Shown in pieces: positions 54,343 to 56,349 of a stretch of 64,000 nucleotides of DNA. Where the stretch lies: assembly GCF_900103475.1 (NCBI RefSeq), contig NZ_FNHG01000008.1:1-64000 (forward strand). Reading direction: 5' to 3'. Source of the DNA: Maricaulis salignorans (GTDB lineage Bacteria; Pseudomonadota; Alphaproteobacteria; Caulobacterales; Maricaulaceae). The translations under genes and the position numbers were made by a program. The notes below the pieces were generated by a model, which worked only from the letters and a program-made list of their open reading frames with translations, had not been told where the DNA came from and searched no databases. Position 1 is the stretch's first letter; each line of letters opens with the position of its first letter.

Positions 54343-56349
54343 ATGAACAAGCCCACCACCCAAGCCAGTTTCGAGACCCCCAAGGTCACCACCGGCGCCT
54401 TGCCGGGCTCGCGCCGCGTCTGGACCTCTCCGGTCACCGCGCCGGGCCTGAAAGTCCCGCACCGCGAGATCGACCTGCATCCGACGGCGAATGAGCCGCC
54501 GGTGCGGGTTTACGATACCTCCGGGCCCTACAGCGATCCGAACGCCAAAATCGATGTCGAGCATGGCCTGCCGCGTATCCGGCTGGCCTCGATCCTGAAG
54601 CGTGGCGGCGTGGAGGAATATGAGGGGCGCCCGGTCACCCCGCTCGATAATGGCGGCGCGACGGGCAAATATCTGGCGCGGGAATTTCCCTCGTTGCGGC
54701 GGCCGATGCGCGGTCTGCCCCCATCGTCCGCTGGCGCGGACACTTCCCCCATGAATGGGGGAAGAAATGGCGCACCCTCGTCCTCCCCCGCGAGCGGGGG
54801 AGGTGTCAGCGCAGCTGACGGAGGGGGGCGGAACGGGGAGAGCCGGGGCCTCGTCACCCAGTATGAATTTGCCCGCGCCGGCATCATCACGGACGAAATG
54901 ATCTATGTCGCCGAGCGCGAAAATCTCGGTCGCAAGACGCCGATGGCCGGTTATCAGGAGCGCATGGCCGATGGCGAGAGCTTTGGCGCCTCGATCCCGG
55001 AATTCGTGACGCCGGAATTCGTCCGCTCCGAGATCGCCCGCGGCCGCGCCATCATCCCGTGCAATATCAATCACACCGAGCTGGAGCCGATGATTATCGG
55101 CCGCAATTTCCTCACCAAGATCAATGCCAATATCGGCAATTCCGCGGTCACATCGAGTGTCGAGGAAGAGGTCGACAAGATGGTCTGGGCGATCCGCTGG
55201 GGCGGCGATACGGTGATGGATCTCTCGACGGGCAAGAATATCCACAACACCCGCGAATGGATCCTGCGCAACTCCCCTGTGCCCATCGGCACCGTGCCGA
55301 TCTATCAGGCGCTGGAAAAGGTCAATGGCGTCGCCGAGGACCTGACCTGGGAAGTGTTCCGCGACACGCTGATCGAACAGGCCGAGCAGGGCGTGGATTA
55401 TTTCACCATCCATGCCGGCGTGCGCCTGGCCTATGTGCCGATGACCGCCGACCGCGTCACCGGCATCGTCTCACGCGGCGGCTCGATCATGGCCAAATGG
55501 TGCCTGTCGCATCACAAGGAGAGCTTCCTCTACACCCGCTTCGAGGAAATCTGCGACATCATGCGCGCCTATGATGTCAGCTTCTCACTGGGCGACGGCC
55601 TGCGCCCCGGCTCCATCGCCGACGCCAATGACAAGGCCCAGTTTGCCGAGCTGGAAACCCTGGGCGAGCTCACAAAGATAGCCTGGGAAAAAGGCTGCCA
55701 GGTGATGATCGAGGGCCCGGGCCATGTCGCCATGCACAAGATCAAGGAGAATATGGACAAGCAGCTGGAATGTTGCCACGAGGCGCCCTTCTACACGCTC
55801 GGCCCCCTGACCACCGATATCGCGCCCGGCTATGACCACATCACCTCCGGCATCGGCGCCGCCATGATCGGCTGGTTTGGCTGTGCCATGCTCTGCTATG
55901 TCACCCCGAAAGAGCATCTCGGCCTGCCCGACCGCAATGACGTCAAGACCGGCGTCATCACCTACAAGATCGCCGCCCATGCCGGCGACCTCGCCAAGGG
56001 CCACCCGGCCTCAAAAATCCGCGACGATGCCCTGTCCCGCGCCCGGTTCGAATTCCGCTGGGAAGACCAGTTCAACCTCGCCCTGGACCCGGAAACCGCC
56101 CGCGATTTCCACGACAAGACCCTGCCCAAGGACGCCCACAAGGTCGCCCATTTCTGCTCCATGTGCGGCCCGAAATTCTGCTCGATGGAGATCACGCGGG
56201 AGATCCGCGACAAGTTTGGCTCTGCGCGCGCGCCGAACGTGATCGCCGAGGCCGAAGCCGGCATGGCGGAGAAGGCGGCGGAGTTTCGTGAGAAGGGCGG
56301 GGAGATTTATCTCAGCGAGAGCGGCGAAGTCAGAGAGCCGATTGATTGA
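54343..56349 (+). CDS. thiC: Phosphomethylpyrimidine synthase ThiC, with an in-frame palindromic insert
   Basis: Makes the HMP-P pyrimidine of thiamine from 5-aminoimidazole ribotide by a radical SAM reaction. The C-terminal cluster motif CSMCGPKFC (C-x2-C-x4-C, near 605-613) and the core ([57 protein letters not shown]) are intact. Residues about 124-166 are foreign: a Gly/Ser/Pro-rich stretch encoded by a palindromic repeat (54717-54829) between the RRPMRG segment and [15 protein letters not shown]. Without it the length would be the usual ~625. The frame is kept. The start is the ATG at 54343, 10 bp after the previous gene. Confidence 0.95.
54717..54829. repeat. Palindromic repeat family D, copy 2, inside thiC
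   Basis: About 113 bp of nested hairpins: GTCCGCTGGCGCGGAC, TTCCCCCATGAATGGGGGAA, CTCCCCCGCGAGCGGGGGAG and GTCAGCGCAGCTGAC. The two 50-bp halves are imperfect reverse complements of each other, bounded by GCCCCC and GGGGGC. The shared word CCCCCATGAATGGGGG and the order of hairpins tie it to the copy at 30011-30133 next to the DUF559 gene. Confidence 0.88.

Follow-up and report, generated by a model that had tools for sequence, protein, structure and literature searches.

How a palindromic repeat came to lie in frame inside a core metabolic gene, and what may have brought it there, is the question raised by the thiC locus of Maricaulis salignorans, which was analysed here within a window of 64,000 nucleotides (positions 1 to 64,000 of contig NZ_FNHG01000008.1) and in related genomes. 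That a mobile element sits in frame in ThiC is, in our judgement, nearly certain, its movement being deduced from sequence comparison. The explanation that we favour as a whole, and hold to be reasonably probable, is a REP-like mobile insert in the linker of ThiC that belongs to a class of palindromes linked to DUF559 genes. The features of the window are collected in Table 1.

Table 1. Features of the thiC and DUF559 loci, with positions counted from the first nucleotide of the window.
Feature	Position	Strand	Description
Open frame with DUF559 domain	29990..30670	+	Domain at 30158-30481; Vsr-like nuclease
Second element copy	30011..30133		Directly 5' of the DUF559 domain, within the same open frame
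Degenerate hairpin half	30545..30600		3' of the DUF559 domain, recognised by eye
TPP riboswitch	53427..53529	+	RF00059, 62.2 bits; upstream of the genes preceding thiC
thiC	54343..56349	+	668 aa, open through the insert
Palindromic element inside thiC	54717..54829		113 bp; between the ThiC-associated and radical-SAM domains
Outer hairpins of the thiC element	54726-54741 and 54805-54819		
First inner palindrome	54743..54764		CTTCCCCCATGAATGGGGGAAG = CTTCCCCC-ATGAAT-GGGGGAAG
Second inner palindrome	54782..54803		CCTCCCCCGCGAGCGGGGGAGG = CCTCCCCC-GCGAGC-GGGGGAGG

The initial annotation had described about 113 bp of nested hairpins with two mirrored halves in an otherwise intact thiC, and this description was borne out in its coordinates and in the open frame of the gene. 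The element starts with GCCCCC and ends with GGGGGC, thus presenting the terminal inverted repeats used as a criterion for MITEs, and between these ends follow a hairpin, CTTCCCCCATGAATGGGGGAAG, a spacer, CCTCCCCCGCGAGCGGGGGAGG and a second hairpin. The predicted RNA fold of positions 54717-54830 reaches -76.4 kcal/mol (z -5.8), a value equalled by none of 200 shuffled sequences, and a similar z score (-6.1) was obtained for positions 30010-30134, which cover the second copy in the window. The word CCCCCATGAATGGGGG occurs exactly at two places in the window and, allowing up to 2 mismatches, has 4 strand matches, compared with 0.11 expected. The proposal that positions 30011-30133 hold another copy was supported by this shared word, but the two copies are only 75% identical over their best-matching 95 bp and are therefore members of one family, not recent twins.

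Pfam searches with the window ThiC located the ThiC-associated domain (PF13667) at residues 20-91 and the radical-SAM domain (PF01964) at residues 172-619. The insert, at approximately residues 126-168, was first placed between segments of the substrate barrel; it actually occupies the linker between these two domains, and the solved ThiC structure 3epm aligns to residues 10-123 and 169-658, skipping it. Cysteines 605, 608 and 613, which we take to hold the iron-sulphur cluster, are conserved in the ThiC alignment, from which L012 (containing a stop) and L007 were left out. Because these cysteines are kept and a TPP riboswitch lies upstream, thiC looks functional, and the enzyme with its insert may well still be active. 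The riboswitch is followed by a YjbR-family gene (53521-53889) and another open reading frame, both ahead of thiC. The insert is probably a disordered loop rich in Gly, Ser and Pro, with which a weak structure model of ThiC agrees (mean pLDDT 64.9, built on 22 sequences, with residues 129-167 of the insert below 50).

In 14 of 18 genomes of the same genus the ThiC sequence was readable over the insertion site, and the element was absent from all 14. Eleven of them have a short linker of 3-5 residues (9-15 nt; nine read as sequence, G014 and G017 from coordinates), so that close relatives do not share the alignable, non-palindromic sequence of the same length that had been named as the sign of ordinary family variation. 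In the other three (G007, G013 and G018) the linker measures 87 nt and lacks the element; a single short palindrome is present in two of them. Alignment with related ThiC proteins thus demonstrated absence of the element with intact short linkers, but no exact insertion junction was found, and no target-site duplication was recognised by eye when the thiC site or the glyS copies described below were compared with empty sites. A length of 113 bp is not divisible by 3, and the net gain over the short linker is about 120 nt, so further bases must have been gained or changed as well.

Over 110 ThiC loci the median linker was 9 nt and 11 linkers exceeded 70 nt. Three of these 11, those of the window, G025 and G030, contain paired C-rich palindromes, and linkers of 72-84 nt without such pairs occur at 7 of the 110 loci, so ordinary length variation of the linker exists too. 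In a fourth of the 11 long linkers, that of L007 (MAG LIN-21), imperfect palindromes were seen by eye that the perfect-stem test did not flag. Five loci (L084, L085, L086, L089 and L091), from two families of the order, share a longer linker with an SSPC motif; two of these linkers, in which TCCTCGCCC...GGGCGAGGA is found, may go back to old insertions. L083-L091 were left out of a thiC control set. G025 and G030, which belong to other genera, carry their own, different repeats at the same position. In a tree of 28 ThiC sequences computed without the linker, the genome of the window (G000), G025 and G030 are separated by genomes with short linkers, and three separate insertions at this site would be the simplest reading, although not a proof, of a tree in which one local support is 0.31, the rooting is arbitrary and G025 and G030 fall within one larger clade. 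The earlier idea of a mobile repeat received by a permissive site was thus supported by the relatives lacking the element and by the recurrent use of the site; the location of the loop in the barrel had to be given up.

In the genomic search for more copies that the initial annotation had recommended, copies were defined by the pattern CACCTCCCCCN{2,10}GGGGGAGG. The genome of the window holds 8 of them, and 5 lie in frame in genes named by NCBIfam as thiC, aceF, glyS, nadB and dnaE2, so that besides thiC four more core genes are interrupted by sister copies; two of the remaining three adjoin DUF559 genes and one looks intergenic. Like the thiC copy, those of aceF and nadB lie between Pfam domains, while the copies of glyS and dnaE2 interrupt a Pfam match. 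GlyS and DnaE2 were each aligned with four relatives, all without the element; a similar insert is present in 3 of 6 aligned AceF sequences, and the NadB linker holds other inserts, repeat-like by eye, in at least 4 of 6. The nadB copy of the window's genome (L118) has its halves in reverse order, the right half preceding the left. Across all genomes 66 of 70 pattern-defined copies were examined, and the in-gene cases recognised among them in other genomes were in thiC and glyS only. In G030 and G000, copies of the element class also occur at contig ends or close to them.

The GlyS site was compared in 23 genomes. The element is present in G000, G025 and G030, the same three genera as in the ThiC cases, and the gap is at most 33 nt in 18 other genomes. 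G034 (L406) has another palindromic repeat at this site, CATCCTGAGC...GCTCAGGATGAC, and in G033 (L407) the linker is enlarged by a tandem array of PHPEDGVAVDS-like units, not by a palindrome. Together with the nadB genes of G009 and G015 (L206 and L208), the glyS gene at L406 suggests a second repeat family at the same tolerant sites. The six reading frames of six element copies contain 0-2 stops each; since they are mostly open, an insertion at a tolerant site would need only the right net length. The repeated strikes on the ThiC and GlyS sites in several genera can be attributed to selection, which would keep in-frame insertions at tolerant places.

The protein encoded next to the second copy in the window matches the DUF559 profile (PF04480) with an E value of 1.1e-36 and retains the acidic residues E16, D45, E56 and D58, which are invariant in 25 DUF559 sequences. 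Its structure model, a confident one (pLDDT 90.8), found as best fold match the putative endonuclease 3hrl (E 3e-8), followed by the homing endonuclease 3r3p (E 3.6e-5) and Vsr 1vsr (E 0.025); Pfam still labels DUF559 as a protein of unknown function. DUF559 genes were detected in 44 of 61 genomes. Around 60 DUF559 loci (60 of the 66 best-ranked matches, three at contig ends and three near another listed gene having been set aside), palindromes peak within 150 bp of the gene and drop beyond 300 bp. A palindrome with TCCC in its 5' arm lies within 300 bp of 51 of the 60 DUF559 genes but of only 11 of 142 other open reading frames at the same loci, called by a crude script rule, and such palindromes flank the gene on both sides at 28/60 and 2/142, respectively. 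The inside-out type, with GGGA in the 5' arm, occurs near 2 of 60 DUF559 genes and 4 of 142 other genes.

The TCCC criterion was set after the 60 loci had been seen, and these are not independent, at least 19 of them belonging to two genera or to shared sites; a class sample and a phylum sample served as fresh tests. In the class sample, with one locus per family, a TCCC palindrome accompanies 22 of 28 DUF559 genes, with no inside-out palindrome and no TCCC type in the far flanks. The phylum sample, which includes five loci of one genus (g149), gave 26 of 27 loci, 14 of 15 outside Alphaproteobacteria, and 7 in the far flanks as well. DUF559 loci lacking a TCCC palindrome numbered 9/60, 6/28 and 1/27 in the three sets, L185 and L191 having been left out of the class set and L336, L338 and L343 out of the phylum set. 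The two flanks of DUF559 genes form inverted repeats that score above all 352 control windows at 63 of 87 loci (L344 left out); within the phylum set the highest score among the control windows, of which there were only 27, was 14, and 18 of 27 flank pairs exceeded it. The palindromes are often not of the thiC type (CCTTCTCCC, CCCTCTCCC and others), the class being defined by its shape and TCCC arm, but at L325 the complete layout of the thiC element, including GCCCCCTCATCCG-hairpin-CACCTTCTCCC, is seen in both flanks.

Either gain or loss of a DUF559 gene is shown by sequence comparison at a site flanked by a gene for an FMN-binding (PaiB-like) protein and one for a thiolase: among 17 same-genus genomes in which both neighbours were located, 7 carry a DUF559 gene there and 10 have 55-235 bp between the neighbours. 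No exact junction was found at this site in the DNA of the 5 of 17 genomes compared. In four same-genus genomes (G006:C43, G002:C11, G005:C11 and G016:C22) the distance between dnaE2 and a DUF559 gene is about 2 kb.

Throughout the 61 genomes, the number of palindromes correlated with that of DUF559 genes (rho 0.70), a value that fell to 0.27 after subtraction of four palindromes per DUF559 gene. The correlation with the number of Y1_Tnp (RAYT) genes, present in 12 of the 61 genomes, was 0.20 (p 0.13). Six of the 28 genomes with DUF559 outside the genus had none of the two counted palindrome types.

These observations are consistent with a mechanism in which a non-autonomous, REP-like palindromic element entered thiC at the linker that joins the two domains of the protein, where its translation into a Gly/Ser/Pro-rich loop would be tolerated. 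The element would belong to a broad class of TCCC-arm palindromes beside DUF559 nuclease genes. The small DUF559 protein, similar to Vsr and homing endonucleases, could recognise extruded hairpins, cut them and start excision or copying, taking the role that RAYT has for classical REPs, and the host might join the DNA by repair after the cut or through a single-strand intermediate. We regard DUF559 as mobiliser of the palindromes, a role suggested by adjacency and co-occurrence, as an evenly balanced proposal, against which it counts that a nuclease alone does not account for the joining step.

A quite possible alternative, which we nevertheless consider less than probable, is that the element is mobile but moved by RAYT or another enzyme, DUF559 being a passenger or a gene in a repeat-rich spot, or the hairpins controlling or ending its transcript. 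Hairpins near gene ends can indeed be terminators, the genome of the window has two Y1_Tnp genes, and palindromes were counted in genomes without a DUF559 match (21 in G018, 10 in G009 and 3 in G003). Moreover, a Caulobacter DUF559 protein is treated as a Vsr-like repair enzyme in the available text of PMC12907096, which counts against a mobilising role; the same paper attributes DUF559/Vsr-like genes to the laboratory strain Caulobacter crescentus NA1000. A terminator, however, does not explain palindromes on both sides of the gene or flanks that form inverted repeats. At the loci examined, RAYT was rejected as the gene linked to the palindromes, since none of 4 RAYT loci, all from genomes other than that of the window and thus not including its two Y1_Tnp genes, had a TCCC palindrome within 300 bp and RAYT number does not track palindrome number; no Y1_Tnp match was found in G025 or G030, both of which carry insertions in ThiC.

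It is improbable that the insert has been domesticated, that is, kept for a function of the protein as a useful linker or of the RNA in the control of pausing or stability between domains. The position of the thiC, aceF and nadB inserts between Pfam domains and the very stable RNA fold would fit such a function, but the GlyS and DnaE2 copies break a Pfam match, relatives of the same genus do without the insert, and the sequences at recurrent sites are unlike one another. Highly improbable is the formation of the hairpins in place by ordinary drift of a variable linker: the ThiC linker does vary unaided, as the seven linkers of 72-84 nt illustrate, but plain drift was rejected because copies of the same element family are dispersed in the genome, and the predominance of very short linkers in the genus also argues against it. 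The least probable of these readings is an assembly artefact that misjoined a repeat into thiC. Although copies at contig ends in two assemblies could point that way, this possibility was discarded, since the copy in thiC sits some 54 kb into a contig of 116,697 bp, preserves the reading frame and is identical to none of the other copies found, and similar inserts occur in separate assemblies.

Returning to a REP-like insert of a DUF559-linked class, several known systems offer parallels. The best-known examples of coding palindromes come from Rickettsia and Wolbachia, and by analogy the thiC element appears to work like the palindromic elements of Rickettsia (RPEs) and the CGTC-tagged REPs. 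NCBIfam presumably holds RPE models, and a search of it with two insert peptides, a comparison of peptides and not of DNA, matched no family. As described in the accessible text of PMC3767692 and PMC2229807, which cite Ogata et al. (2000), RPEs are palindromic repeats of 100-150 bp that lie in frame in Rickettsia core genes and keep the open reading frames, and orthologous genes carry different elements at almost the same place. Similarly, thiC, aceF, glyS, nadB and dnaE2 are open through their copies and the thiC element measures 113 bp, but it is of another sequence, GC-rich, and resides in a 3.1 Mb genome outside Rickettsia.

CGTC REPs, according to the available portion of Di Nocera et al. 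(2013, PMC3733652), are found mostly in Alphaproteobacteria, predominantly as head-to-head dimers, include RPE-4 and RPE-6, have copies within genes such as those for DnaE2 and tRNA synthetases, mostly have AT pairs as the first two of the stem and CCA as the tail, and seemed in 2013 to lack a dedicated transposase. The copies in the window are likewise head-to-head dimers of two inverted halves. As to the CGTC tag that marks one end of the palindrome in these REPs, by eye CGT precedes the first stem C in 3 of 4 window palindromes, the first thiC palindrome being the exception. In contrast to CGTC REPs, the stems of the window copies start with CT, CC or TT (C[C/T]T with the first C) and not AT, the tail is GTG and not CCA, and they show additional outer hairpins and DUF559 adjacency. 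The same text describes GTAG REPs and REPtrons as dispersed palindromes that flank a linked small enzyme gene, RAYT; this arrangement is shared by the present elements, but here the enzyme gene encodes DUF559, a PD-(D/E)XK-like nuclease, instead of a tyrosine transposase. The DUF559 model resembles Vsr and the homing endonuclease I-Bth0305I in fold (1vsr and 3r3p), from which DUF559 is set apart by the palindromes that accompany it on one side or on both. A literature search on very short patch repair together with REPs returned nothing relevant, and no paper linking DUF559 to such repeats was found in a search mostly outside subscription journals and preprints, which is weak evidence of novelty.

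The locus places coding palindromes in a 3.1-Mb genome of a lineage other than Rickettsia and Wolbachia, and the unlike insertions at the same sites serve as a natural guide to the places in ThiC and GlyS where about 40 additional residues are tolerated. Given its adjacency to the palindromes in all three sets of loci (51/60, 22/28 and 26/27), DUF559 is a candidate for the dedicated transposase reported as lacking for CGTC REPs. Tentatively, and at slightly less than an even chance, DUF559 proteins may be nucleases dedicated to mobilising a second superfamily of REPs across Pseudomonadota, parallel to RAYT; the non-autonomous elements of this superfamily would repeatedly write linker peptides into core enzymes such as ThiC and GlyS.
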